From: Rhyzopertha dominica | Taxonomy: Eukaryota; Arthropoda; Insecta; Coleoptera; Bostrichidae | Assembly: GCA_025024175.1 (NCBI GenBank) | Contig: QCXZ01000053.1 | Coordinates: 7,998,001 to 8,062,000 of the forward strand | Reading direction: 5' to 3' | DNA length: 64,000 nucleotides | Part shown: piece by piece, positions 6,218 to 56,850 of the stretch | Layout: each line of letters begins with the position of its first letter | Numbering within the stretch: the stretch's first letter is position 1 | Translations under genes and position numbers: made by a program | The notes under the pieces: generated by a model | The model's input: the letters and a program-made list of their open reading frames with translations, nothing else | Told to the model about the DNA's origin: nothing | Database searches by the model: none

Positions 6218-8314
6218 ATTAAATCATTTTAAAAAATTGTGTTAATAGCTGATATATTGAAAATAAACCTAACAATGTGTATTTGCTTAATTAGGAAAAT
6301 ATTATTGCCGAAAAATCTAAGTTTGAGACATATCTCAAAATACTTCACTACAGCTTTAAAATAAAAGCCATTATAAAATCGGCGAATTACGATTTAACTA
6401 ACAACAAAAAGGTGAGAGTAATGTGCACACCGCAATTCTCCAGTATTACAGCGTATTTCAACCCAGAACCGCATATCCCACCACTTCATCCAGCGCGATG
6501 ACTTGCTGTTGTTTACCACTGCTTGGAAGTAGGGATAAATGTTACTCAGCGTTCCACAGCGAAACGTGTTGCAGTACGCCAAAATGATCCGTAACGACAG
6601 GTTTAGACACAAACTGGTTTCTGCGCAGATTGACTTCAAGTGCGGTTCTGGGTTGAAATACGCAATAATAGTTATCGAGATATCCTGTAACTACAACGAA
6701 AATTGGACACCTTGTACCACAGATGAATTAGTTCATCTATGCCTGTACACAGATAAGCAATACTTGCAAGTATAGTAAATACGACTATGAATGGGGGTTT
6801 TCAAAAAGAATTTCACTAAACCTTGGAGTATTTGAACCAAAATAAAATCAGATATGCTATAATTTCTATAATTGTCGTACTTGTATTTCTGTGCAAGAAC
6901 TTTGGATAATTATAGTTGATATCAATTCAACACTGCCTCACCTTTGAGCATATAAGATATCAATTTTTAGTTATCATCTATGCAATACTAGTAACATGTA
7001 TATACCAACAAGTTGACTCTTTCAAGCCTTTTAGTTTCTAAAGTCGCCATATCAATATGACCTTTAACCTTACGTCCCCACAAAAACAGTTTTATTAGAA
7101 ATAGTAAGGACATCACAGTTATACTAGTATTTTACAGACAAAATCAGTCTGCCTGCTCTTTGAACGGCAGGATACAAATCGTACCCAAATAAGAAATTCT
7201 CCGTTCTAGAACATCCACCCTGGTACGGAAATTTATTGTCCCAAACTAGTAAGTGAGCGCAATAAATGCAGGTAGTCCTGGTGGGTGGACCCTAATATCT
7301 GAGGGTTTGTCTAAACCACTATTAGACCGAAATACGATGAAAATAACCGGTGGCGCTCCCTAGTGGAATTTGAGTTTCGGATTTACCTACCCTACCCTCT
7401 TAAAGTAAGAAAGATCTTGAGAAGAATATATTTGGTTCTCAAAAAGAGAACAGGAAAATAAGATTGCTGCAGCACTGGATGCAATATCCAAAGTGAACCG
7501 TAAGAAAATTCAAATGCGTCCACCGTTCGCCGCATGGGAACTACCGCCGAGGGCCGGTATCTCGAGTGATCTACGAGTGAAATTAGCCAAGTTGGCCGAT
7601 AATCGAACCGTTTAGAATTCCGTGGTAGCAGCAGTTCCTTATAGGTACTTGTTAGTCGTGTAATAATGAACAGTACGTGCCCGGCATCCGTTGTTCGGTG
7701 CAGCGAATTCCCGCAACTGTGTGCGCTTTTGCGGCCGATAAGTACAAGTATGGCGAGGCATTTTAAAAGCACCGCATTCCCGGCAATGCCGAAGAAGTGG
7801 CGCTATGCGGCTGCACACGATTACTCAAAGTCGCGTAGATGTGAGGGACCTGCGACTGGAGTTTTTCATCTTTTCCAACAATGATCGCGCCAGTTGAAGA
7901 TTGGGATGAGTGGATGCTACTTCCGTCACAATTACCGTCAGAAACATTTTTAGTTATTTAATTCACTATTAACGTTTTGTGGTTATTTAATGAATAGCAT
8001 ATATAATTAAGAGTTTGCCATGAGAGCAGGGCCATAGAGAGGGGGGGAGGGTTATTTCCCCTAGACCTGTGCATTTTGGAATATTTAAAATGTAATGGAA
8101 CATATTTGACATTTTTAACAACCTGAATCGAACCTGAATTTTTTTTTACCAAATTCACAAGTTCCTGTTCCCCATCAGGCTGTGAAATTATCTCCACAGC
8201 AGGTCACTTCCTTTTGGAAGTAGTTCCCATACTGGCAGCTAGGTGGCTTTGTCATCGTGTCAATGTAATACTGACAGATGGCATTGCCATCTAATTTATT
8301 ACTTACATCATACC
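6218..8314. other. Unassigned region with a GC-richer island
   Basis: No coding or transposon signal recognised. About 7480-7890 is richer in GC and CpG than its surroundings and not seen elsewhere in the window. The overlapping opposite-strand frames there (7392-7772 and 7666-7884) look like chance frames. Confidence 0.4.
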
Positions 8315-8357
8315 AAGCCTTTCGTATATAGGCAAAACCAATTCTGTGCCATGATGT

Positions 8358-9157
8358 GGAAAGACCCAAGTTGAGGGTATTCCAGTTTGCGGATGACACG
8401 GCGCTCGCCATCGAAGGAAGGACTTGGGAAGTAGCGAAGAACAGGATGGAGGAGGCAACGTACCGGCTGAATAGGTACTTCAAGAAGTGGAAACTGACAA
8501 TGAACGAGACGAAGACCGAGGTAATACGGAGGGGCAAGAAACGAACGAGGGAGAAAATGAAGATACAGGTCTGTAACAGTATGGTTCCTGTGAAGAACAC
8601 GGCGAGGTATTTGGGGATACAATTTGATAGCAGATTGGACTTCGGAAATCATGCGACGATGAGGAAACACGTGGAAGAGAAAAACATAAGGAGATTTTGG
8701 TGCCTTACCAGGCACAACAGTGGCTACCACCAGAGAGTAAGGCTGAGGATAGTCAAGGCGATTGGAATACCAGTGCTGACGTACGGAGAGGAGATATGGA
8801 GCAGAGGGTCCAACAAAGCAAAGGAAACGATAACTACGGCGCAAAATAAAATGTACAGAAGGGTATTCGGAATACCCTGGTACACCAGGACCGTGAATAT
8901 CCGGAAGGACTTAAAATGGATAATCTATTGCAAAGAGCAGAATAGAGAAGGGGAAAGATGAAAGAGAAGATTGCACAGCACGAAGATCAGGAAATCGCTA
9001 GAATAGCAGAAATTTTATAAACACCGATTAATGCGGAAATATATATAAAAGAGGATCAAAAAATCTAAGAGCTTTTCACCTGTAAAAGCACCCAGCAGGA
9101 CTCTCCCATATAGGCACCCCCTGAAAGCAGAGTAAAAATAAAAATTAACAAAAAAAA
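8358..9157 (+). mobile_element. 5'-truncated LINE with target duplication and A-rich tail
   Basis: TGCCATGATGT occurs at 8347-8357 and again at 9158-9168. The 800-bp insert between begins in the middle of a reverse transcriptase and ends in an A-rich tail with AAAAAAA at 9151-9157. A variable-length duplication, 5' truncation and an A-rich 3' end are the marks of target-primed reverse transcription. Confidence 0.9.
8362..9027 (+). pseudogene. LINE reverse transcriptase C-terminal part (jockey-like)
   Basis: The frame opens inside the reverse transcriptase with FQFADDTALAIEG, the catalytic A/DD box, then KWKLTMNETKTEV, ARYLGIQFDSRLDFGNH and the thumb-like region RLRIVKAIGIPVLTYGEEIW typical of jockey-type LINEs. 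It stays open for 200 codons to 8961; a related tail follows. The N-terminal half, endonuclease and ORF1 are missing. The apparent start ATG at 8356 comes from the duplicated target site and is not a real start. Long openness suggests a fairly young insertion. Confidence 0.85.
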
Positions 9158-9184
9158 TGCCATGATGTCTGCACTAGACCTAAA

Positions 9185-9216
9185 CTGCAATGAGAGCGAA
9201 ATAGATCCATCTGCAG
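9185..9216 (+). ncRNA. Decayed hammerhead motif in family B copy 1
   Basis: Stem I CTGCA (9185-9189) with TGCAG (9212-9216) is perfect, and GAAA (9198-9201) is followed by a short stem III with loop GATC and cleavage base C at 9211. The CTGATGA core and stem II have collapsed to ATGAGAGC by deletion, so this copy should be dead. It is useful for covariation of stem I. Confidence 0.6.
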
Positions 9217-9426
9217 ATGGTTGCGGTGCAAACTGCATAGTATAGATATGCATTTTTATTTGAATCGAAGTTTAGACAACCGCATGGTAAATATTTATAG
9301 GTTTAGTAGTCTTCAAGCCACTAGGTTTTTTCTTGATTTTATCGAAGGAGCCTTCAGAAATAAATGTAAAGTATATTGATCAGTACGTATATGGCACAGC
9401 TTTAACCCTGACATGGTCCAAAAAAT

Positions 9427-12144: not shown

Positions 12145-12146
12145 TA

Positions 12147-13561
12147 TACAGGATGTTTCACGAATGATAATGACCCTGACGAAATTAAAAATGCAACCCA
12201 AAATACATTTGCAGAGGTAACATTGATAATTGTTCATCGTCTTAAAAAATATAAAACGTAGAGAGCTGTATAAATTCGTAAATTTTGACATAAACTTCAA
12301 TCATTTGCTTTAAGTAAATTCGGTATTGTAAAACAAATTTTATTTTTGTAAAATGTTTATTCAATAACACTAATGTCGCCCTCCGCTCTTTTCACAAGCT
12401 TGAATTCGTGCCCAAAACGGTCTTTTAACATGCATCAATATTTCTGGAGTGATGGATCCACATGCATCACGTATTTTATTTTCTAAATGTTCTACACTTT
12501 CAATTGGTGTTTGGTATACTTGCTCTTTTACCATTCCCCACAGAAAAAAATCCAAAGGAGTAAGGTCCAGACTTCTCGGTGGCCAAGGATTAATTGAACC
12601 TCTTCCTATCCATCGGTTAGGCAAAACCAAATCAAGATGATTTCGCACTATTCTATGATAATGCGCAGGTGTCCCATCTTGTTGGAACCATAGATCTTAT
12701 CTTACTTGTAAATTTACATTTTGGAGTACCGGTAAAATGTTTCTTAAAAAATTTAGATAAGTATTGCTGTTTAGACTATCGCGAAAAAAATACGGCAATT
12801 TGATTCCCTAATACTCCGCACCAGACATTCGTCGAGTAGATAGTTTGAATATGGCCTTCGCGAATCCGTGGATTTTCTTGCGCATAATAATGCATGTTTG
12901 TTAACTCCACCATTATTAGAAAATCTTGATTCATCTGAGAAGCAAATGTTGTCATAAAATGTCACATTCAAATTTTGGTGTTTCCGAAAAAAGTTACAAA
13001 AAACCATTCTTTTAGGATAATCTGTCTCCTTTAAGGCCTGAACCAATTGCAAGTGATACGGATGAAATTGATTGCCTTTAATTATTCGGTATACTGAAGA
13101 CAGACTAATACCGGTTGCTCTTGAGACTACCCTTTGACTAATATGAGGATTTTCGTCAATCATTTACAATACTCTAATTACATTGTCAGGGCCTGTTGCT
13201 GTTCTTTCTCTTGACTTTTTCAGTGGTGGCCAGTTTGTCCTTAAAGTTATTTCAAGTCTCTTGAAAACGATATCGGCAGGAGCTCTTCTATTTGGAAAAC
13301 GTCTGTATAAACGGCCAGCAGCGGAAGCATTTTTCTTGCATTCACCATAAATCAAAATCATATCTGTTTTTTCATCATTTGAATACATTTTGACTTTTAA
13401 TAAATACAGTGACAGGAACCATAGCGCATAGCCGTCATGGATTCCCAAATTGTTTTTAAAATAAAACCATTATGTAAAATAACCACATTGGCTATGAGAA
13501 TGTATTTTAAGTTGCATTTTTAATTTCGTCAGGGTCCTTATCATTTGTGAAACATCCTGTA
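12147..13561 (-). mobile_element. Tc1/mariner element of DD41D type, complete ends
   Basis: Inverted ends of about 62 bp start CAGGATGTTTCAC at 12149 and end in the mirrored sequence at 13559, each flanked by TA (in TATA). The right arm differs from the left at a handful of positions. Inside is a broken transposase on the - strand. The size (1411 bp), TA target and DDE protein place it in Tc1/mariner. Confidence 0.92.
12370..13409 (-). pseudogene. DD41D mariner transposase, broken
   Basis: The protein would start near 13391 (MYSNDEKTDMILIYGE, first helix-turn-helix) and run through SQRVVSRATGISLSSVYRI (second HTH), NICFSDESRFSNNG (first D), FQQDGTPAHYH (second D) and WPPRSLDLTPLDFFLWG (third D). 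By my count 41 residues separate the second and third D, the spacing called DD41D (rosa-like). Damage: a nonsense codon at about 13161-13163, frameshifts near 12890 and 12785, and a stop near 12690. The gene is dead; the order and length match the family. Confidence 0.85.
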
Positions 13562-14392
13562 TATACCTTTCTAATTGTCTGCTCTGGGTTGCTGTTTTAG
13601 AAAAATTGTAGAACTGAACTACAAGAAACGTCAGAATAAAAGGTTAACAAAAAACTAGTCCAGCGACCTTAAACTAATCACTATTAACGTAAGCGCCACT
13701 TCTGCACTACATTCTTCGTCCAGATTAATAATCAAATCCGGTACCAATCTAGTTCAACACACATCTTCACGAACAACACACTATGCACTGGTAGATGATT
13801 CCGAGTTAGTTAGCTCGTCGTGGATGTGATTGTCTCCGAGCGAATACAAACTTTATAACGTCGAAAGAGTACCATGTTTTGAATCATTTAAAGTAAAGTA
13901 AAAGGATGTTCATCATCAAGAAATTCAACATTATCATCTATCACAATTTTAAAGTCTTCATCCATCTCGAAGATGTTAAAAGCTAAAAATCTTTTATTTT
14001 AACAAAGCAATAATTTATTATGGTACATTCCTCCAAGAAAAATGTTAAGCGGAATCTTGAGAAAGACTCTTATTTTATAACTATCAGTTGCAAGTAATTT
14101 ATCTTGAAGACCTCAACACTCCGCCAGTTTAAGGAAAACTCTTTTATCACATTCGCATCCAAGTACTTATAAACGGTTTACTGATTACCTAGTTACTACC
14201 TAACTCTAGAGTCCCTGTATTATCAAATAGAAAAAGTTTTGGAAATACCCGCTACAATTCATAATCTTTTACCCAAGTACCAGTAAAACGGCTGCTTATC
14301 TCTTTCTAAAGATTTGTTTTGAATTGTTCTAGTCATCTGCCTATCACGGAGTCAACGAATTATTTTTTAAAGTCCCAGGTAAGCTGTTTTAA
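13562..14392. other. Unassigned sequence
   Basis: No coding, RNA or repeat signal recognised. Confidence 0.4.
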
Positions 14393-14500
14393 TTTCGGTA
14401 GCATCCGTCACTATGTTGATGAGCTGTAATGACGAAATATATCTATCTGTAGTTGGTTGCGGTTCATACAGCATAGCATAGACATGCATTTTTATTAATC
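14393..14500 (+). mobile_element. Family B hammerhead-bearing repeat, copy 2
   Basis: From GATGAGCTGTAATGAC (14419) through GTAGTTGGTTGCGG to ATAGACATGCATTTTTATT (about 14478-14496) it matches the other family B copies. The upstream TATA-like part is not recognisable, so the copy is probably 5'-truncated. Confidence 0.75.
14410..14454 (+). ncRNA. Degenerate hammerhead ribozyme, family B copy 2
   Basis: The core reads TTGATGA (14416-14422), with the first C changed to T. Stem II has lost three bases (GCTGTAATGAC). GAAA is at 14434-14437, then a 3-bp ATA/TAT stem with loop TATC, and cleavage base C at 14447. Stem I still pairs ACTATG (14410-14415) with TGTAGT (14448-14453), two of the pairs being G-T. 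Likely inactive. Confidence 0.6.
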
Positions 14501-26959: not shown

Positions 26960-28510
26960 AATTTCATTCGACTACGGTCGACTTTCATAAAAGCCTTGAA
27001 AGAAAAAAATCTTCTCAATCAACGATAAGAAATCTTGCATTTGCGCTCTATCTGGAATAGATACACACATCTATTCTGAATAAAGTAGAAAAGAAGAAGA
27101 AAACTCTTAGAAAAACTCCAATCAGATCTCGATTGACTTAAGACAATTTTCAACACATTCATCAACACGATGGATCGAGGCAAAACCACCAAACCATGCT
27201 GTACGGGGGCATCTGTTGACCATATGTTCAATTGTTTGTAAGGAGTCTCCACATTCACAAGAAGGGTTGATAGATGGATCCCATTTATTTAAAAAAAAGT
27301 TGCATTTCCCATGACCAGTGCCAAGCCCATTCAGAATGACCCTAAGACTTTCTCAGGAGGTCAGTTCCTGCCACCTTTTCTGTAGGATCGTCTATAAACT
27401 GTTGATTGAGTATATAAAATTTCTTAAGTCGCCAGTCAGAACTGTTTTCTGGAAGTTAGCCGATTTGTAGGAAGCTCTTGCAGATCTGAGGAAATCATTA
27501 CAGTATTTAGTTGAACGTTAATTTTGCCTGTGTGATGACTATTTTTCCGGACAAGAGAGTGGTACTCAGCAGTGTTATAAAGCAAGGCAGTTGCATTGGC
27601 ACCCCAACTTGTAACCAGCATTTTTTCACTGATGTTTTCTAAACGTTTGTTGTACGTTAGAGGCGTATTTAGGGTCACTCCAAGGTATTTTGGCGAGGAG
27701 TTATGTCTGAGAATTATGTTATTTGACATAACTTGAAGTTGTTTTGTCTTTTGATGATTGTCTTCAATGGATTAGGGCACAAGCGCCAGGCTTTGGAATA
27801 GCAATTCATAATCTCGATGTCTTTTGAAAGGTTTGGTTCAAGTACAAAAAAGCCAATGCCATTTCATCTGCATGCACAAATTTTCTCGATTAAGTTAGAC
27901 GACAGAACCGATCCTTGTGCAAGACCATTATCCAAAATCCTGAATTTGCTACTTTTCTCTCCCAAAAACACTCTGAATTAACGTTAGGACAGCATTCGTT
28001 CGATAAGCTTCACAGTCTTTCCACATTTTGGAGTATTAAATTGTTTGAGGATCAATCCATCTTTCCACACAGTATCATCAGGCCCCGATAAGTCTATATA
28101 CACCACTCCAGTTTTCAGTCGTTTCTGGAAACCAGCTTCAGCATATGTGGTCCCAGCAACTTCTGTTCTTCCTAAAACCTGCTTGTTCCTTCGGGAGTGA
28201 ATCTTCAATAATAGGTTCTATTCTCTGATAGACGAATTTCTATAGTAACTTGTAGCAGGCACTCAGGGGGGCAATGGGTCGGTAACTTCCTGCTTCATTT
28301 GTAGGTTTCCTAGGCTTTAAGACAGCAATCACCTTTGTTTTCTGAAACAAACTTGGAAGAGTACGTGATCTGATGGCTTATATAGCACAAATAGCGCGCC
28401 GAAGTTCTTCCAATGAGAACGTTCGCATCTTTTCTTAACCGAGGAAGCTTTCCCTTCATCTTTTTCGATTCCTCCGTAGATATTTGAACAGAATTGAAGA
28501 TATGATCCAT
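26960..28510 (-). pseudogene. LINE family D, copy 1 (- strand)
   Basis: From 28510 downward the - strand shows SKFVSENKGDCCLKA (start of the RT), AGFQKRLKTGVVYIDLSGPDDTVWKDGLILKQF (motif A region), CGKTVKLIERMLS, NIILRHNSSPKYLGVTLNTPLTYNKR, ATALLYNTAEYHSLV, and near 27190-27260 a C-terminal C..C...H...C-like knuckle. It has many frameshifts and lacks the A/DD box region in frame. It is clearly homologous to 53625-55245 on the other strand. The 3' end reads ...GAAAGTCGACCGTAGTCG near 26965 and abuts the truncated 5' edge of the neighbouring LINE. Confidence 0.85.
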
Positions 28511-34900: not shown

Positions 34901-37135
34901 TACAAGGTGATTCTTTGAAAACTTCACACCTTAAATAACTTTAAATAGAGGAAAAATTTAAAATTTTGCAAAAACAGGTAAACTTTTGTTTGCAGGGGGA
35001 CAACTTTTGAGTTAAGTTTTTAATGGATAGCGCTTACCCTCTTAGCGGGGTAGATGCCCCTTCAAAAATTTTAAATGAAACTACCCATCTTACGATACAT
35101 CATTTAAAAGCTTATTACACAAGGAGTCTTGCCATGTAATTAGTTTTACTATTTTTTACCCATTGACGGGGTAGTGGGTCAAAAAGTGCATTGTAGCAAG
35201 TGGCTTATAAAATGGAATATTTTGGACTTTTTTTAACAAAATTTATTGTCTTGCAGTTACAATAAAAATTGTCCTTACTTAAGCCTAAAAAAACTTGTTA
35301 AAAAATAATTGTTACACCTAAGCAAAATNCCAACAATACTTAAAATTTTCTTTCGACATTACTTNATATTGCAACTCGACAGTTAATACTGAATTGGCTA
35401 AATAATTATCTACTTTGTGTTTCCAATTTTTTGTTTCAACTTTTTGNCTACTTCTTTAGCACGACCATCTTTTTGTTCACATTCCTTTTTATAAATCGCG
35501 TGAAATTTTAAAGTGAGAGTCCAAGTGATAATGGTTTATTCAACTGCCGAAAGGGTAGAAATAATTTTTATTTACGGTGCTGAGCATAGCTGTGCTCGTG
35601 CGTCATCAAGGGTGTTTAACGAACGGCACCCCGATAAAAATGTTGACGCTAGGTACATTCTCGATCTCGTGCAGAAATTTCAAGACACTGGATCTGTAGT
35701 AAACAAAAAAAGGGCAGGGAATAGAGTCGTTGATGAAATGGCCCAACTTGAAGTACTTGGTCATTTTGCAATGGATCCAACTAGCACTTTGCGTAACATT
35801 TCTACAGCCACTGGACTTTCTTATTCATCTGTAAGGAAAGTTACAAAACTGCACAAATTCCATCCCTATAAGATCAAAACTCTCCAGGAACTCGGCGAAG
35901 ATGACTTCGATAGAAATATCTGCTTCAGTGATGAATGCACATTTTTTTGAACGGCTCTGTAAATAAACATAACGTCAGGTACTGGAGTGACGAAGATCCT
36001 TATATTTTTCGAGGTCATACACAAGTTCCTCAGAAGCTGAACGTCTGGGCTGGAATACTTGGCAACGCAATTGTAGGTCCAATTTTCATTGATGGGACGC
36101 TAAATGGGGGAATGTATTTAGAATTACTTGATAACGTTATTGATCCTTTAATCACAGAGCAATTAGAAAACCAACGTGACCCTGAAGGAAATCCAATGTT
36201 GAATGAATACGAATTGTTTTACCAACATGATGGAGCCCCACCGCATTACGCCATTAATGTGCGAAATTGGTTAAATCATAGATTTCCTCTTCACTGGATT
36301 GGTAGGCGTGGAACAATTGAATGGCCGCCACGATCACCCGATTTGACTGCTTTAGATTTGTTTCTATGGGGTCATTTAAAATCTGTGGTTTACAAAACAC
36401 AACCTACTAGCCTGGACGATCTGCGAGAAAGAATTATTAACGAGTGCAGGAGGATTCCACCTGAATCTTTCCGAAAAGTGCAGCAGGAGTTCGAGAACCG
36501 TCTGTATTATTGTATGGAAAGAGGTGGTGCACATTTTGAGAATCTATTGTAAGGTTTGAATTTCTATGGTTTTGTTCGCACTGTTTTTGGAGTTACAAAT
36601 AAATAATTTTTCTTTTTCGTGGACATGGACTTTCTAAAAAATTACATGATAAATACTTTAATGTTAATAATAATGTTAAAAGAAAATTTTCAGTATTCTG
36701 GGAGTTTTTTTTAAGTGTCATATTTTTTACAAGTTGTTTGTTTAAATTTTGGGTTCTCGTAAGGGCAAATTTTATTTCCGCTCTAAAAAAAATACATTTT
36801 GTTGAAAAGAGTCCAAAATATTCAATTTAATAAGCAACCTGTTTCGTAGGCACTATTAATCTATTACCCCGTCAATAAGTTAAACGTGGTAAAACTAATT
36901 ACATGGCCAGACTCTGTGAAATAAGCTTTCAAGTGATGTATCACAAGATGGATAGTTCCATTTAAAATTTTTAAAGGGGTGTCTACCCTGCTCAGAGAGT
37001 AAGCGCTATCCATTAAAAACTTATCTCAAAAGTTGTCCCTCTGTAAACAAAAGTTTACCTGTTTTTGCAAATTTTTAAATTTTTGCTATATTTAAAGTTA
37101 TTTAAGGTGTGAAGTTTTCAAAAAATCACCCTGTA
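34901..37135 (+). mobile_element. DD41D mariner with ~400-bp terminal inverted repeats
   Basis: The ends CAAGGTGATT (34903) and its mirror AATCACCCTG (37133) are flanked by TA. Inverted similarity continues inward for roughly 400 bp on each side (to about 35310 and from about 36705), with indels. The 2231-bp element carries a transposase at 35531-36552 on the + strand. Such long inverted repeats are unusual for mariner, whose ends are mostly about 30 bp. Confidence 0.9.
35531..36552 (+). pseudogene. DD41D mariner transposase, one frameshift from open
   Basis: Start ATG 35531 gives MVYSTAERVEIIFIYGAE (first HTH), TLRNISTATGLSYSSVRKV (second HTH), then NICFSDE (first D). The frame shifts within a run of seven T at 35942-35948, after which NGSVNKHNVRYWS, LNVWAGILGNAIVGPIFIDG, YQHDGAPPHY (second D) and WPPRSPDLTALDLFLWG (third D; 41 residues between by my count) are open to the stop at 36550-36552. 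Between DDFDRN and ICFSDE about 20 residues usual for the family are missing, an apparent deletion. The best preserved transposase here; the T-run shift could be an assembly error. Confidence 0.88.
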
Positions 37136-37935: not shown

Positions 37936-39160
37936 TAGTGGGGTCGTCCCAAAATTTTTTTATTTTACATTTAAAATGCACATAAAAATTGATGCACAAA
38001 GATATTTTTTGCGATTTTTTCCTGTTCTTCTTTGCCGAGAAAAAAATGTGAAAGTATGTATTTTTCAATATCCGTTTCAAATGCATCGATATTCCGCCAC
38101 GGAGATGACGTAAAAGGTTCGCATGCTGACGAAAGCGAGAAACACCAATAATAGCCAGTGCTCTAGCGGCATCGCAGGTAATATTTGTTTACATTCTTTT
38201 TGAGCTGCGTCGCGTTGCCAATGTGGGCAAATTTTCGGGAAACCGTGAGGAATGTACTCGTAAACAGGCATTGTGACATTGATACCTAGGTCAGCTTAAG
38301 GCGTATTTGTGAAAATAACTTAAATAATCCTTCAGTCAGTTTATTCTATATAATGAGCACATTCACTGGCCTTTTGCTAAAATACGAAAGCACTTTAACC
38401 ATGGAACCTGCTTTAGAACGAATGTTTTTATTATGAGGAATTAAACGACGCTTGAAGCTTGATAATGATTAGTTTGTATACTTTCGTATGACGTATGACG
38501 ATATGATAAATTTTGAAACTGTCAGGACGATCTCTGACCGTCGTTCGGAAGAAAACCGTAAAGTATCGCTAACAACATCGCACGTGCTGCATGTGCCACA
38601 TGTGTAACGAATAACCCTAACAACGCTAGCCATGCGTTTTTGTTTACATAGTTTGGTCAAACTTTCGAGTTTCGTATTTGTCAGATTAAGTGGTGGAGCA
38701 AGATGTTGTCGAAGTATTTGGGTAATCTTTTGTTTTTTAATGTCAGAATGGCTTACGTTAAGAACTGTTTTGTCCAGTGTTGTAAGAATACTACTGCTGA
38801 TAAACAGTTACATTTTATTCCTGTGTTTACATTATAATATTGACGTTGTCGGTTATACTTATACCTTCGCCCCTCTCTCTCACTCCCATTGCATTATTTG
38901 TATTTCTCTGGCTATTTATAAAACTGACAACAGTGAGCACCTAGTTACCTAGGGAGCTGTAACAGTGCGCATGACGGAAATTAGGAACCTTTTGCGTAGT
39001 TGTTGGCGGATTTAAGAAAATGTTTGAAACAGGGTAATTTTTCTACCGCCGTTGAATTAATCTGAAAGCAAAATAAATGCGTGGCACTAGTATTCATGAT
39101 GTAAGCAATAAAAGGCATAGGTTAAAACTATCAAATTTTAATTTGCGGGACGACCCTATT
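37936..39160 (+). mobile_element. P-like (THAP) DNA transposon remnant
   Basis: GGGTCGTCCC at 37941-37950 is mirrored by GGGACGACCC at 39147-39156, and the bases just inside are AT-rich on both sides. A THAP-type protein start lies between. I could not find an exact 8-bp target duplication. The size (about 1.2 kb) implies an internally deleted, non-autonomous copy. Confidence 0.5.
38748..38837 (+). pseudogene. THAP zinc-finger N-terminus
   Basis: The ATG at 38748 opens MAYVKNCFVQCCKNTTADKQ and continues LHFIP before a stop at 38835. The start M-x-Y-V-x-x-C-x-V-x-x-C and the following H-F-I-P match the THAP domain that binds DNA in P-element transposases and related host proteins. The second half of the finger (C..H) and any catalytic domain are missing. 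A host THAP gene exon is a less likely alternative, given the flanking inverted ends. Confidence 0.6.
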
Positions 39161-42140: not shown

Positions 42141-43560
42141 AATAGAAAGACATAGTAATTCTTATTGCAAAATGCTAGGTTTGGATCGTTTTTTCTCCAC
42201 TTTGTCGCCTAAAAAGGTTGGAAGGACGACCACTTTACTCGGAAATCCTAGAACGTGATCGCCGACGCAATCTTTCAATTAGGGGTACAAATATTGACTT
42301 TGTCGGGTCGTCTCCCCCAAATCTGGGATTTCTTTAAGTTCCGAGACGTGGCCATCGGATTTTATATGGCTGAAGATGTTTACAGATGTCTGACACTCAC
42401 CACCGCATGCTTTTGACGACGGCCCTGTTATTCTAACGACCCTCGAAGGATATTTATACAGGCAATCTGAAATAATAACCTTTCGGGGTGAACGCCAACA
42501 CGTGGTGAGGGCTGGGAAGCTGGGCAAAAAAAGTAACGGTTGCTAACAGATTTATCCTGCCTTGAAAGAGAAATGTGGATTCGGTTGTGCATTATAATTT
42601 CGAATATTTTTGAGAAACAAGTTCAGGATTATTTTTTTAAACAGAGTGCAGAAAGACGCCGNCAGAGAAGGACTTATTTATTACACGTGTCAAAGGAAGA
42701 ATAATAATATATTTACCCAGTTTTTAAATTAAATTATTTGGTATACTGTCGTATCCGCGCGAATTTTTGGGTTTTAAGTTAGAAATTGAGTTTTCTTCTT
42801 CTAGTACAAAAAATAACTGTAGAAAGCCTCGACTAATGCAAGAGGATATTCCATTAAATTTCCGTGATTTCCAATTTTATCTAGTTTATGATTTATTTTT
42901 TATTTTATTTTGGAATTTATAATTTTTTATACTTTCAAAATGACATCAAAATTCGTCAATAACTAAATCTAAAAGATATATTAGGCAGGACAGCGTTAAT
43001 AAAGTTGGTACAACAAGCTAAATATTCAAATTATTAAAAGACAAAAAATGTATCTACATACTTCATGTATGTAGTGTAGTTTCGCTATATAACTTCCATC
43101 CAGTTTTTCTTCGACATTTTCTAATAAAATTTCTTAGCAGTTATTTGAAAGCAGTCATATAACACCGGATTACATTATGAATTTGAATAAATTACAAATT
43201 TGTTTTGCTTACGACAAAAAATAAAAAGCATCATGTAAAAACCATTCCTATAGTTCGAATTGTGTAAGTTGATGGGACACTTACAATAAAATCGGAAGGT
43301 TAAGACACAAAAATCTACATTCATTTTAGAGACAAAACTCACTCTTTCTCTTAATAGATTATTTAATATAAATAAAATTGAGTTTAGAAACCAACAAGCT
43401 CTATTAATGGAGCCCCATAAAGAGCTCAAACTACACTGATTAAAGATTCGTGAATTGTTGAGTGTTATTCCAGTATTCAAAAGAATTACTTAAGATAATT
43501 TGTGTTTTAAAGCAACTGTTCAAGATAAAAAATCCAAAAAAAAATTTGTGTTGTCAAAAA
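42141..43560. other. Unassigned, with a GC-richer island at 42180-42540
   Basis: No coding or transposon signal recognised. The island has several CpG and palindromic words; a chance - strand frame covers it. Confidence 0.4.
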
Positions 43561-43574
43561 ATTCAGTAATGGTT

Positions 43575-43735
43575 AAAATTAAAATGCATGTCTATGCTGT
43601 GCTGTCTACACCTCAACCAACTACAGATAGTGCTATTTCGCTGTCATTACAGCTCATCAGTGCAGTTTAGGTCTAGTGTAGACAACACCGCATAGAACTG
43701 GTTTTGCTTATATACCAAAGCAATGGTTTCAAGTA
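43575..43735 (-). mobile_element. Family B hammerhead-bearing repeat, copy 3 (best preserved)
   Basis: On the - strand: TATATAAG (43715-43708), CGGTGTTGTCT (43689-43679), CTAGACCTAAACTGCA, the ribozyme, then GTAGTTGGTTGAGG and ATAGACATGCATTTT. All blocks recur in the copies near 9.2, 14.4 and 56.1 kb. Non-coding. The TATA-like box 45 nt upstream of the fold suggests its own promoter. Confidence 0.8.
43619..43667 (-). ncRNA. Hammerhead ribozyme, type I, family B copy 3
   Basis: On the - strand: stem I 5' strand AACTGCA (43667-43661), core CTGATGA (43660-43654), stem II GCTGT-AATG-ACAGC (43653-43640), GAAA (43639-43636), stem III ATA/TAT with loop GCAC (43636-43627), cleavage base C (43626), stem I 3' strand TGTAGTT (43625-43619). 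Stem I has 7 pairs including one G-T; stem II has 5 perfect pairs. All invariant core bases of the hammerhead are present. Cleavage is predicted between 43626 and 43625. The 3-bp stem III is the minimal form reported for PLE and retrozyme hammerheads, which may act as dimers. Confidence 0.8.
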
Positions 43736-46059
43736 ACGTTCTTTTGATACAATTGCTAGTTTTATTGTACAAATCACTGATAAAACTTAAAATGGATAAT
43801 GAGATTTTAATAAATAGTTTACATAAATTGTTAATGAGGAAGACCTGTAGCAGAGAATGAAGTAGGTAGACAAACAAGTAGAATAAAAACTGTATTTTAA
43901 AAATTTTTTGCGGATATTGGCGTAACCCATCAAGCTATTGTTTATTTTTGTGCAAATTGCAAGCTTGCGTGAGTAAAATACTTAGCGGACGACTACGCAT
44001 AATTAGGTTTACTTTCATGACAATATACCGAAGTAAATGGATTACAAATATGCCGCAACGCGCGACATTTAAATGAACATTCGCAACTTCTGTTAAAAAT
44101 TCACCGCCAACTAAGCCTAACTAAATTAGGCCACCTTGCCAGAGATTGAATAATGTAACACGTTGGGCAATAAATAATGCAGTTTTCTTATACCTAGTCA
44201 TCAAACTGAATCAATTATTTCTAAATATAGCTCTGCAGAGAAGGCATGCAGCCTCCGGTTGTCATCTGGAGTTGAATACAATGCTCGAATGTCGCTGTAT
44301 TTAGCGACCGGTAAAAAAGCCTCTGTTGCCTTACACGTAAGTCTAGTTATGCAGGTTGGTTACCCGGCAACGTGCAATTGACAGACAATTGCATTGCTCG
44401 CAGGGCTGCCAGTTTCGAATTTCTTGCAACACAAAGTGAGCACTACTGGTCTGACTAATGTAGACTTATTAAATCATTTCAGTAGCAAATTTTTTTCATA
44501 ATTTAATATTTTCTTTTATTTTTGTAATGTTAATAATAATTGTTTGATTCAGATTTTCTCAAGGCTACAATGTCGCCATTTTTGGTGACTTTATTCCACC
44601 AGCTCCTTATTGGATTAAGGATCACAGTAGAGAAATACATAGTTCCACCTACTATGTCAACTGTCTTCAATAAGTCCAAATAAATTCTGGAATACATCAG
44701 ACTCACTTGAAGTACGCATCAAAGTCAAATGGAAATCTTAAATATGTACGAAATAATAACTTTACCGGTTGGATGAGAACTAGCTCCCAACTCATCTAAA
44801 CAAAATCAAATCAAAACAATGAATGCTGTTGTAGAGAGATTGGAGACATCAGTCATGTACTTTATAATCGTTCACTTAATTAAACTTAATTATCGAGACT
44901 TATCTTTCTGCATTTGGCCAACCCCACTAAATGCAAACTGTTGTTTGCAAACCTGTAATGAGCAGCTAAAACGATTTTCAGTTTCCTATGCAAGTCCAAA
45001 ATCTAGTAAACAATATTTATTATTTATTTTTTATTTTTATTTTTTATTTATTTTCTTATTTAGCTGTAGAAGATTTAAAAGACCACACTCGCCTCTTTAA
45101 AAGAAAAGGAGCAAAAACGTAATCAAACACAGCAAGACACAACCCCAAGAAGGTATGACCTAAGCACTAGGATACCGAAAACCGGAATAGCTGTATCAAG
45201 ACCGAGGCTGTCTATCTGCACGGAACACATAATCGTATCAAAGACCAAGTCCCAAGTCTTAAAGGCTGCCTAGAAGGCTCTGTCAATGACATATCATAGG
45301 AAATAATTATTTGATTTACAAACATTAAAAAGTGTTCCTTTTATGCGAGTATGCGGTAAACACAAGCCATGAAGAGAGCTCTTCATACGACTAAAACACA
45401 TGTATTTTTCCTAAGGCCTGGTGTTAAATATAGAAACAAATAAAAAATAATGGATATAAAGCTTGCATTAAAAAATTAGGTACTTTTGTGAATATGTATT
45501 TTTCATCTAGTGGTTCTTCTTCAGGACTTATTGCTTTAGACGTTTTTTATTTGCTTCCCCGGCATAAATTTGCGGTACGCATCTGGGTAAAGTTTTTCCT
45601 TTGTTTTAGGTAGCAGCAGATTACCAACTGCCAATTCTGCTTATTGTTTTATTTCTGGTGAGATACTAGAAAATTCTCGTTCGCTTACTATTAAACACAT
45701 TAATCGCTGAATACAACTAAATTTGTTTTTTTATAAATGAAATACTGACAAGTCAACTACCAATGATTAAGTGAAATTTAGCCCTTTAATTTGTGCCAAA
45801 GTTTACTTAATATTTCATTTCCAGCAGATCTGTCGCTTTTAATTTGAGTTTCAAGGTACACTACCCAGGAACAACGTTGTTTTATTCGCTTCTTGCAGAG
45901 TGAAGGCCCCTCCGATATTCCTCCTAGAATGAAGCTGCAATATGAAAATTGATGTTCATCATACCAGCAAGTGTATGAATGGAACAACAAATGTCAAAAC
46001 GGACTCAATTCCGTAGCTAAATCTCACCGACTTGACCAGGTCAGGTCGGGTCAAATCGT
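43736..46059. other. Unassigned sequence
   Basis: No convincing gene. 44230-44450 is GC-richer. 45018-45060 is a T-rich simple-sequence tract. A - strand stretch at 45780-45870 (VVYLETQIKSDRSAGNEI) faintly resembles the end of a LINE reverse transcriptase but is too weak to call. Confidence 0.4.
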
Positions 46060-47380: not shown

Positions 47381-48408
47381 TAGGGTCCGCCACCTAAAAC
47401 TCCCCAGGCCCGTATTTTCTTTATTTTTTTAGGTACAACTTTACGTTATATGTCAAATTGTAGGTCTTTTTAAACTCTTTAAAATGGAATATTGGGTGTC
47501 CAAAATTTTTTTTTCAGATTATCATATTTTGCAAATAAAGTTAATTTTTGTAAATACTTTTAACGTTACCCCGTATAATAAATATTGCTTTATAGTTGGA
47601 TACCGGCTTTTATTTTTTCAATTTGTGTCTTCACCATGTATGCGTAATTTTTACTCCTTCTTACTGAAAAACAAGAAAAAGTAGTCGCCGCCATTTTTGT
47701 TAATAGGGTTTGCTCAGATTTTTTTAAGTGTTACTTTAGTAGCTTATTACGGTACAAATTATGCCTACATACCCTTCGCTGCACACAAAACCCCAAGATT
47801 TGGAGTAACTTTTAAATAAATAAAGTACAAAGTTCGTTCTACAGAGAGAGAGAGAGAGGCTAGGAAACGAAACCCTGCGACGAGGCTAGTGCGTGATGTA
47901 GAAAACCAAACTAGCCTCATCGCAGGATTTCGTTTTCTAGCCTCTCTCTCTGTAGAACGAACTTTGTACTTTATTTATTTAAGAGTTACTCCAAATTTTG
48001 GGGTTTTGTGTGCAGCGATGGGTATGTAGGCATAATTTGTACCGTAATAAGCTACTAAAATAACACTTAAAAAATTCTGAACAACCCTACTAACAAAAAT
48101 GGCGGTGAATAGTTTTTCTTATTTTTCACTAAGAAGGAGTAAAAATTACGTATACATGGTAAAGACACAAATTGAAGAAAGTAAAAGGTTGCATGCAACT
48201 ATAAAGCAATATTTATTATACGGGGTAAGGTCAAAAAATATTTACAAAAATTAAGTTTATTTGCAAAATATAATCATTAACAAAAAAAATTTTTGGACAC
48301 CCAATATTCTACTTTTAAAGAGCTTAAAAAGACCTACAATTTCATATATAACTTAAGGTTGTACCAAAAAAAAATACGAGCCTGGGGAGTTTTAAGTGGC
48401 GGACCCTG
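47381..48408. mobile_element. Family C foldback transposon (near-palindrome), copy 2
   Basis: Ends TAGGGTCCGCCACC and GGCGGACCCTG with TATA on both sides; two arms of about 500 bp around a 21-nt loop at 47890-47910, with short stem words AGGCTAG/CTAGCCT. Highly similar to 15981-16974. The loop is in the opposite orientation to that of the other copy. A single-stranded form would fold into a very long hairpin. Confidence 0.88.
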
Positions 48409-53624: not shown

Positions 53625-55245
53625 TAGATACATGTACTATTCCAAGTTTGTTTCCGAAAACAAAGGTGATTGCTGTCTTGAAGCCTGGAAAACCTCCAAA
53701 TAAAGCAGGAAGCTACTGCCCTTCTGAGTGTCTGCTATAAGCTACTAGAGAAATTACTCTATCACTAAATAGGACCTATTATAGAAGACTCACTCCCGAA
53801 GGAACAAGCAGGTTTTAGGAAGAACAGAAGTTGCTGCGACCAAGTCTTGGCTCTAACAACGCATGCTGAACTTGGTTTCCAGAAACGATTGAAAACTGGA
53901 GTAGTGTTCATAGACTTATCAGCGGCCTATGATACTGTGTGAAAAGATGGATTAATCCTCAAACTATTTAATACTCTGACATGTGGAAACGTTGTGAAGC
54001 TTATTGAACGAATGTTGTCCCAACGTCAATTTAGAGTGTTTCTGGGAGAGAAAAGTAGCAAATTCAGGATTTTGAATAATGGTCTTCCACAAGGATCGGT
54101 TCTGTCGCCTATTCTTTTCAACCTTTACATAAGTTACCTTCCAGTAACTCATTCGAGAAAATTTGTGTATGCAGACGACATGGCATTGGCTTTGCAAAGT
54201 AAAGACTTTTCTGTTTTTGAACAAAACCTTTCAAGAGACATCGAGATTATGAATTTTTATTTTAAAGCCTGGCGCTTGTACCCTAATCCGTTGAAGACTG
54301 AAGTAACTTGTTTTCATCTCAACAATCATCAAAAGACAAAACAACTTCAAGTTATGTCAAATAACATAATTCTTAAACATAACTTCTTGCTAAAATACCT
54401 TGGAGTGACCCTAGATACATCTCTAACCTACAAGAAACATCTAGAAAACATCGGTGCAGATGCAAGTGTACTCCGTACTTCTGCAACTGCCTTGCTTTAT
54501 AGCACTGCTGAGTACTGCTCTCCTGTTTGGAAAAATAGTTATCACACAGGAAAGTTGACACTCATCTGAATACTGCAATGCGACTAATCACTGGAACAAT
54601 TACGTCAACTCCATGACCTTGGCTTCCGATTCTTTCAAACATTGCTCCTTCGGAGATTCGCAGACGGTTTGCTACATATAAAGCTTGGCAAAAATATCAA
54701 TCAGCTTCTAATGAGTTTCTGATTTCCCGAGATCTGCAAGAGCTACCTACAACTCGGCTAACTTCCACAAAACCTCTGTGGACAGAAGATTTTCTTCGTG
54801 CGCCTTATACCATTGAAGATGGGTGGTATTCTGCTTGGCAACTTAAGAAACATGATATATTTAATCAACAGTTTATAGACGATCCTACAGAAAAGGTAGC
54901 AGTAACTGACCTCCCAATAATGTCTTGGGTCGCTCCAAATCGCCTTCGCACTGGTCATGGGAAATCCAACTTTTTTTCTTAATAAATGGGATCCATCTAT
55001 CAACCCCTTGTGAATGTGGAAACCCCCTTCAAACAATTGAACTTACGGTCAACAGATGCCTCCATGCAAACATGGCCTGGTGGTTTTGAGTCTATCCATC
55101 GTGTTGATGAAGATGTTGAAGATTGGCTTTAGACAATCGAGATCTGATTGGAGTTTTTCTGCGGTTTTCTTCAATACTCTATCCAGAATAAATATATCTC
55201 CTATCGTTGAATAAAAATATTTTTATTCCATCGCTATTATAAAAG
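53625..55245 (+). pseudogene. LINE family D, copy 2 (+ strand)
   Basis: Reverse transcriptase in order: KVIAVLKPGKPP, EDSLPKEQAGFRKNRS (53790), KTGVVFIDLSAAYDTV (motif A) followed by a nonsense codon at 53940, VKLIERMLSQRQFRVFLGEK, LPQGSVLSPILFNLYIS (motif B), VYADDMALALQ (catalytic A/DD, about 54165), FKAWRLYPNPLKTEV, LKYLGVTLDTSLTYKKHLEN, ATALLYSTAEYCSPVW. After a frameshift near 54560 the C-terminus continues to a C-x-C...H...C knuckle around 55010-55070. The run 53994-54567 is open for 191 codons. Endonuclease and ORF1 are absent. The 3' end (GTCGACTGTAGTAGTCG, about 55247) matches copy 1. Confidence 0.9.
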
Positions 55246-56029: not shown

Positions 56030-56180
56030 AAAAAATACAAAATTACATCTATGTCATGTCGCCTGCGTCGAAACAATCTGTAGACATCTGTTTCGGCTTA
56101 TAAAACCTCCTCAGCACAGCTATAGTTCCAAGGCAGACAACACGGTATAGATCTGGCTTCCCTTATATATGCCAATGTAG
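56030..56180 (-). mobile_element. Family B hammerhead-bearing repeat, copy 4 (divergent subfamily)
   Basis: On the - strand: TATATAAG (56169-56162), CCGTGTTGTCTGCC, the ribozyme, then ATTGTTTCGACGCAGG and ACATAGATGTAATTTT. The order of blocks equals that of the 43.6-kb copy, but identity is clearly lower, so this is an older or separate subfamily. Confidence 0.65.
56078..56119 (-). ncRNA. Hammerhead ribozyme, type I, family B copy 4
   Basis: On the - strand: stem I CTGTG (56119-56115), core CTGAGGA (56114-56108; the seventh core base is free to vary), stem II GGTTT-TAT-AAGCC (56107-56095), GAAA (56094-56091), stem III AC/GT with loop AGAT (or ACA/TGT), cleavage base C (56083), stem I TACAG (56082-56078). 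Stem I and stem II have different bases from the 43.6-kb copy but stay paired, a sign of selection on structure. Confidence 0.75.
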
Positions 56181-56850
56181 GCGATGTGTATGCGAGAATT
56201 ATAATGTAAATGAGGACACCATGCCATCTAGTGGTGATACGCTACCATCCACCCGTTAAGATGTAGGCATACAAACATTAAGTCGTGACTCAAATGTTTG
56301 CATTTCTGACTACTGGCACAAACGCTGGAAATTGTCGTTAAAAAACAGGAGCAGCATACTCAGGGTGCAAAGAAAGTAGTTCATTTACAATCAATTGCGA
56401 TTTCTGTCGAAACACCATTTTTGATTGGCATCTTTCAATTTTCGATTACAAAATTCAAATAGCGATTCAATGCAAATAATTGAAGAAGTTGGTTCAATTT
56501 GTATGGTGCGAAAAAAGTCAGGAAGACACAAAAACGCGATCAAAATGGTGACCGATTAAATTCTTTCACTTTTTAATGCTCGTTTTTTATGTGAAATTTT
56601 ATTGGAATTTATTGGATTTCTCTTTACCAAAAACGCTGGTGAGAATCTAGTTAACAAAACAATTATTAGCAGTTTGATAAGATGCTATCTGATGTATACA
56701 TATTCTTGATTGCTCAGTTATAAACTAAAACAGTTCCACAAATTGAAATCAGAACGTCCCCTGAAAGATGCAGTTCCCAAACTCTGTCCAATAATGTTCA
56801 ATGTTTTATTTACAATTAGTTATTTTGTACAACTATATCTAATAATTATT

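Follow-up and report, generated by a model that had tools for sequence, protein, structure and literature searches.

A repeat unit about 160 bp long carries an intact hammerhead on the minus strand of the 64-kb window, the whole stretch of Rhyzopertha dominica DNA analysed here (copy A; Table 1). Four homologous copies of the unit lie on both strands of the window, with an intact core in two of the four (A and D). Direct reading of copy A recovered every invariant hammerhead base that the initial annotation had named on the minus strand, and its three stems (7, 5 and 3 pairs) and tetraloop GCAC were borne out as well. Copies A and D have the invariant core and three stems, with stem I as the open one, and are on sequence assigned to the type I hammerheads; copies B and C are not.

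Table 1. Positions of the hammerhead repeat copies and their parts in the 64-kb window.
Feature	Positions	Strand	Basis or remarks
Copy A, whole unit (~161 bp), intact hammerhead	43575..43735	-	blastn; flank comparison with copies C and D
TATATAAG box, copy A	43707..43714	-	11 nt before CTATGC; spacing equal in C and D
Rod extending stem I, 5' arm	43668..43696	-	inverted repeat, folding, pairing analysis
Hammerhead, copy A	43619..43667	-	direct reading (stems I/II/III of 7/5/3 pairs); Rfam; descriptor search
Stem I, 5' strand (AACTGCA)	43667-43661	-	direct reading
Core CTGATGA	43660-43654	-	direct reading
Stem II (GCTGT-AATG-ACAGC)	43653-43640	-	direct reading
GAA	43639-43637	-	direct reading
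Stem III (ATA-GCAC-TAT)	43636-43627	-	direct reading
C17	43626	-	direct reading; predicted cut 43626/43625
Stem I, 3' strand (TGTAGTT)	43625-43619	-	direct reading
Rod extending stem I, 3' arm	43591..43618	-	inverted repeat, folding, pairing analysis
Two TTTT runs behind the rod, copy A	43575..43584	-	possible Pol III stop, from sequence
Copy B	14412..14497	+	5' half missing (truncated near core); C3 to T; stem II shorter by 3 nt
Copy C, 5' part	8300..8357	+	TATATAGG at 8325-8332
Copy C, 3' part	9158..9264	+	13 nt missing, C3 to A9 among them
Copy D	56030..56199	-	divergent; core CTGAGGA 56114-56108; TATATAAG 56169-56162; predicted cut 56083/56082

The hammerhead and the rod beyond stem I

The hammerhead reading stands because homologous copies carry compensatory changes; Rfam alone is insufficient to settle it. 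The initial annotation had looked to a hammerhead covariance model for confirmation, which Rfam did not supply: no match reached a gathering threshold, and copies A and D matched only below threshold. Copy A matched Hammerhead_HH9 at 23.8 bits (threshold 52), with an E value of 0.0039 when 1.4 kb was searched and of 0.18, in row 7 of 12, when the whole window was searched. Copy D matched Hammerhead_3 at 18.5 bits against 48.5 (E 0.16, 251 bp searched) and was missing from the sub-threshold rows of the whole-window search. A type I descriptor shaped once copy A was known (CTGANGA, stem II of at least 4, stem III of at least 3 and stem I of at least 5 pairs) found copy A as its single match on both strands of the window and none in 124 Mb of Markov-1 random sequence. 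Having 2 pairs in stem III, copy D falls short of this descriptor. A chance motif was rejected on the empty random sequence, the covariation and the agreement of the A and D cores, in keeping with the earlier view that the motif is more than chance. A miRNA hairpin was also considered and rejected, as MIR860 reached 15.7 bits of the 89 at its threshold, with an E value of 8.8.

Stem I of copy A is prolonged by a rod of 27 more pairs, largely preserved in copy D; neither the rod with its inverted repeat nor the other copies in the window had figured in the initial annotation. The inverted repeat around the core has 30-nt arms that are 80% complementary, and a 116-nt stretch of copy A folds at -51.1 kcal/mol, compared with -31.07 in shuffles (z -5.84). 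The unconstrained fold of copy A (-51.4 kcal/mol) is more stable than the fold with the hammerhead imposed (-47.8 kcal/mol). Similarity between copies A and C begins about 20 bp before the TATA box, which is the 5' limit of copy A, and fades beyond, while that between A and D begins at the TATA box, with the sequence farther out at background.

Four copies and what they conserve

A blastn search of the window with 43400-43900 as query returned B at 14417-14496 (E 1.6e-18), C at 9157-9264 and 8303-8357 (E 1.1e-17), D at 56032-56169 (E 4.5e-9) and the query's own inverted arm, the E values being those obtained from copy A alone. Identity to copy A is 84% for B (82 aligned columns), 82% for C (97) and 63% for D (113). 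The initial annotation had proposed a search for further copies with the fold kept, and within the window the three relatives comprise one intact copy, D, and two broken ones, B and C. A covariance model built from copies A to D recovered its four members, as it necessarily would, along with two weaker reverse-strand echoes of the A and D palindromes, and found no fifth copy in the 64-kb window. Weak rows from blastn (38365-38434, E 0.005; three others, E 0.091) and nhmmer (E 0.16 to 8.2) were taken as chance or palindrome echoes. No copies were found in viral contigs (three patterns) or genome contigs (one pattern), from which little follows because these records are viral, bacterial and archaeal.

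Copy C is interrupted by a LINE fragment with an A-rich tail (8347-9168), lying between two copies of TGCCATGATGT at 8347-8357 and 9158-9168. The fragment encodes a piece of RVT_1 scoring 24.5 bits, under the Pfam cut-off of 29.6, and its position inside a hammerhead copy makes it a datable nested insertion. The window holds other repeats and transposon-like features. At 35513-36552, two ORFs in different frames look like the parts of a frameshifted Tc1/mariner-like transposase. For the second, 834 relatives reach an E of 0.001 or less, and the named ones among the matches listed are from beetles and hemipterans. A second protein search likewise gave beetles and hemipterans among the named matches listed, with a turtle and a fish in addition. 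A palindromic hairpin at 47830-47965, perhaps a MITE, matched mir-1329 (35.7 of 101.2 bits), mir-9201 and snoR125 below threshold. Inverted copies of another repeat lie at 54829-55172 and 27096-27441 (85% over 348 bp), and a 65-bp stretch at 13499-13563 recurs inverted at 12145-12209 with 94% identity.

Pairing across the copies was assessed on a MAFFT alignment of all four, with the structure model taken from copy A with the hammerhead imposed and with shuffles that ignore relatedness. Overall, 113 of 126 pairing cells pair, and 71 of 84 do so once copy A, the source of the structure, is left out. In seven pairs both partners have changed, and each of the four helices has at least one such pair; shuffles gave 3.3 (the observed number was reached by 4 of 500) and slid versions 1-2. 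The count of further pair types was unremarkable (60 of 500 shuffles). Between A and D, 35 of the 42 pairs are kept (P 0.0034) with six double changes (P 0.012), against 11-20 pairs and 1-3 double changes in slid versions, and the compensatory changes in D fall in stems I, II and III. Taken alone, the comparisons of A with C and with B did not exceed the shuffles (P 0.17 and 1.0, respectively). All 12 invariant core bases are identical in A and D (P 0.0026), and the sole core difference between them is at N7, a free position. Given that A and D keep their pairing, with double changes, and agree at every one of the 12 invariant core positions, selection probably acted on both ribozyme and rod during the life of the family. 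Ribozyme and family identity are well supported.

The TATA box, the T-run and the promoter question

The TATA-type box that the initial annotation had put about 45 nt upstream was found as TATATAAG, 46 nt before CTGATGA. It recurs as TATATAGG in C and TATATAAG in D, so that all three copies with a 5' end (A, C and D) have a box, each 11 nt before CTAT or CTGT. The pattern TATATARG occurs seven times on both strands of the window. Internal tRNA-type A and B boxes are not conserved between A and D by eye, and no tRNA genes were found. Upstream of the promoter part, AGATGGCAT was seen by eye in C (8277-8285) and D (56220-56228) at differing distances, and was not seen in A.

With a T-run 3' of the rod in all four copies, the layout of TATA box and T-run resembles that of a type 3 Pol III gene, as far as sequence can indicate. 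In the chief rival to the retrozyme-like element favoured below, the unit would be a small-RNA gene like that of U6, present in several copies, in which an upstream element of snRNA type (PSEA) and the TATA box drive Pol III, the T-run is the stop, and a hairpin RNA of about 105-125 nt cuts itself once at its tip. The fixed TATA distance and the T-run favour this reading, as does TAATTCTCGCATACACATCGC in copy D, which matches the Drosophila U6 PSEA at 13 of 21 positions (the Drosophila sequence may not match the host PSEA) and lies 11 bp before the TATA box; the Drosophila U6 spacing is given as 12 bp in PMC4227766. Scored against the Drosophila sequence only, however, the best PSEA windows of copies C and A reach 9 and 7 of 21. 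Sites scoring at least 13 of 21 number 105 in the window, and copy D's had been noticed by eye beforehand, so the match is suggestive at most; copy D's is one of six sites on both strands of the window that combine a PSEA match and a TATA box. Nor is it proof, because insect PSEAs are lineage-specific, as described in PMC9841428. The T-run, moreover, is shared by A, B and C through common descent, and TTTT is frequent in the window (0.021 per base). Overall, we consider a U6-kind gene unlikely.

Mobility and relation to known hammerhead elements

The initial annotation's proposal of a non-autonomous retroelement stood in part: the hammerhead does lie in a dispersed TATA-headed repeat, with four copies in 64 kb, but no convincing target-site duplication or tandem unit speaks for retrotransposition. 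The copies sit on both strands amid unrelated flanks. Copies B, C and D have no target-site duplication of at least 11 nt with at most one mismatch, and the single 12-nt near-match at copy A was set aside because its 3' member falls inside the shared tail; the retrozyme criterion applied was that target-site duplications, if present, exceed 4 bp. No convincing poly-A was found at the copies, and no tandem unit lies beside copy A (42500-45000), the four copies in the window being separate. The 5' truncation of copy B fits an outcome of target-primed reverse transcription, a single case that proves little.

The main difficulty for simple retroposition is the upstream promoter travelling with the copies, because simple retroposition of the unit's own transcript leaves that promoter behind. 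A tandem or read-through source, or movement at the DNA level, would resolve it. Joint movement of promoter and body is simply explained by the last of these. A transposase would then move a DNA element of the foldback or MITE-like type, and the hammerhead would be in its long inverted repeat by coincidence. The inverted arms of copy A suit such an element, but the shared TATA box, with about 20 bp more in A and C, lies outside them, no target-site duplication was found, and copy D keeps a core and stem II that a passenger would not need. We consider a foldback element quite unlikely.

The initial annotation had also entertained a solo end of a Penelope-like element, which goes unsupported here. 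Penelope-like elements bear type I hammerheads in pseudo-LTRs, many of them dispersed, according to the review PMC7761336, and their short dispersed ends resemble our copies. As described there, however, their motifs are minimal and usually have no real helix III, and copy A has three pairs and a tetraloop. The GIY-YIG domain is absent by Pfam from the five ORFs chosen, three of which have RVT_1, and no Penelope protein was found in those five. No larger element is shared around copy A, whose flanks match nothing else in the window except repeat copies B and C. A solo pseudo-LTR is the least probable of the readings.

We favour, at a probability of about 0.5, a dispersed, non-coding, non-autonomous retrozyme-like hammerhead element of about 160 bp with its own putative promoter and solo copies. 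Animal retrozymes, insect ones included, are described in PMC7229834 as short tandem repeats with type I hammerheads and a weak helix III. As in the metazoan non-LTR retrozymes of that account (Cervera and de la Pena 2020), the unit combines a type I hammerhead and weak helix III with a short repeat, under 50% GC, many copies and a highly self-paired RNA; unlike them, it is solo and about 160 bp, whereas theirs are tandem and about 170-400 nt. Plant and metazoan retrozymes seem promoter-free in the account of one review (PMC7761336), and later work reports a promoter within the LTR of a plant retrozyme. Solo copies, the two dead copies among four and the free fold that beats the hammerhead fold weigh against the retrozyme-like reading.

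Other hammerhead repeats share parts of this architecture. Interspersed hammerhead repeats of Aedes aegypti are by description (PMC3088659) similar in being from an insect, interspersed and endowed with a loop III palindrome able to give a 10-bp dimer stem; a related Aedes hammerhead RNA was inactive as tested there. Schistosome SMalpha, described as a high-copy SINE-like element (PMC8490949, PMC2770079), likewise has a type I hammerhead, and PMC8490949 does not speak of a TATA box, in contrast to its presence in three of three copies here. Newt satellite 2 and Dolichopoda pDo500 by description also hold hammerheads in repetitive DNA, but as tandem satellites. Newt satellite 2 is driven by an snRNA-type promoter. 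Among the titles and abstracts listed from open-licence papers, no description of the present hammerhead family was found. We regard it as new as a family, unusual in its TATA box and solo copies, and most likely retrozyme-like.

Transcription generally starts about 30 nt downstream of a TATA box. For the retrozyme-like element, we infer promoter activity, cleavage and retrotransposition: TBP would bind the TATA box, transcription would start about 30 nt downstream, within the 5' arm of the rod, and the RNA would fold to a hairpin capped by the hammerhead. A cut after C17 would leave a 2',3'-cyclic phosphate and a 5'-OH. The element may have spread via RNA copied by the reverse transcriptase of another element (a LINE or a Penelope-like one), the route suggested for animal retrozymes. 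Two molecules might also pair into a dimer for cleavage, which has been reported for hammerheads of amphibians and suggested for those of Aedes, because stem III is weak and AUAGAUCUAU, the majority sequence of copies A, B and C, is by eye a perfect 10-nt palindrome (no single copy being perfect). In a further reading, which is distinctly unlikely, this is an insect element built as a U6-type (Pol III) hairpin gene whose tip is a self-cleaving ribozyme. Its promoter, rod, hammerhead and T-run would then together be one self-contained unit of about 160 bp. Such a unit would produce and cleave its own RNA, would differ from retrozymes in using no tandem arrays, and would take its promoter along as it spreads.

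For the transcription of animal hammerhead repeats, a family with a conserved TATA box, rod and T-run would make promoter, start, stop and cut testable in one small unit. Diverged copies within one genome reveal which of its parts selection has kept.
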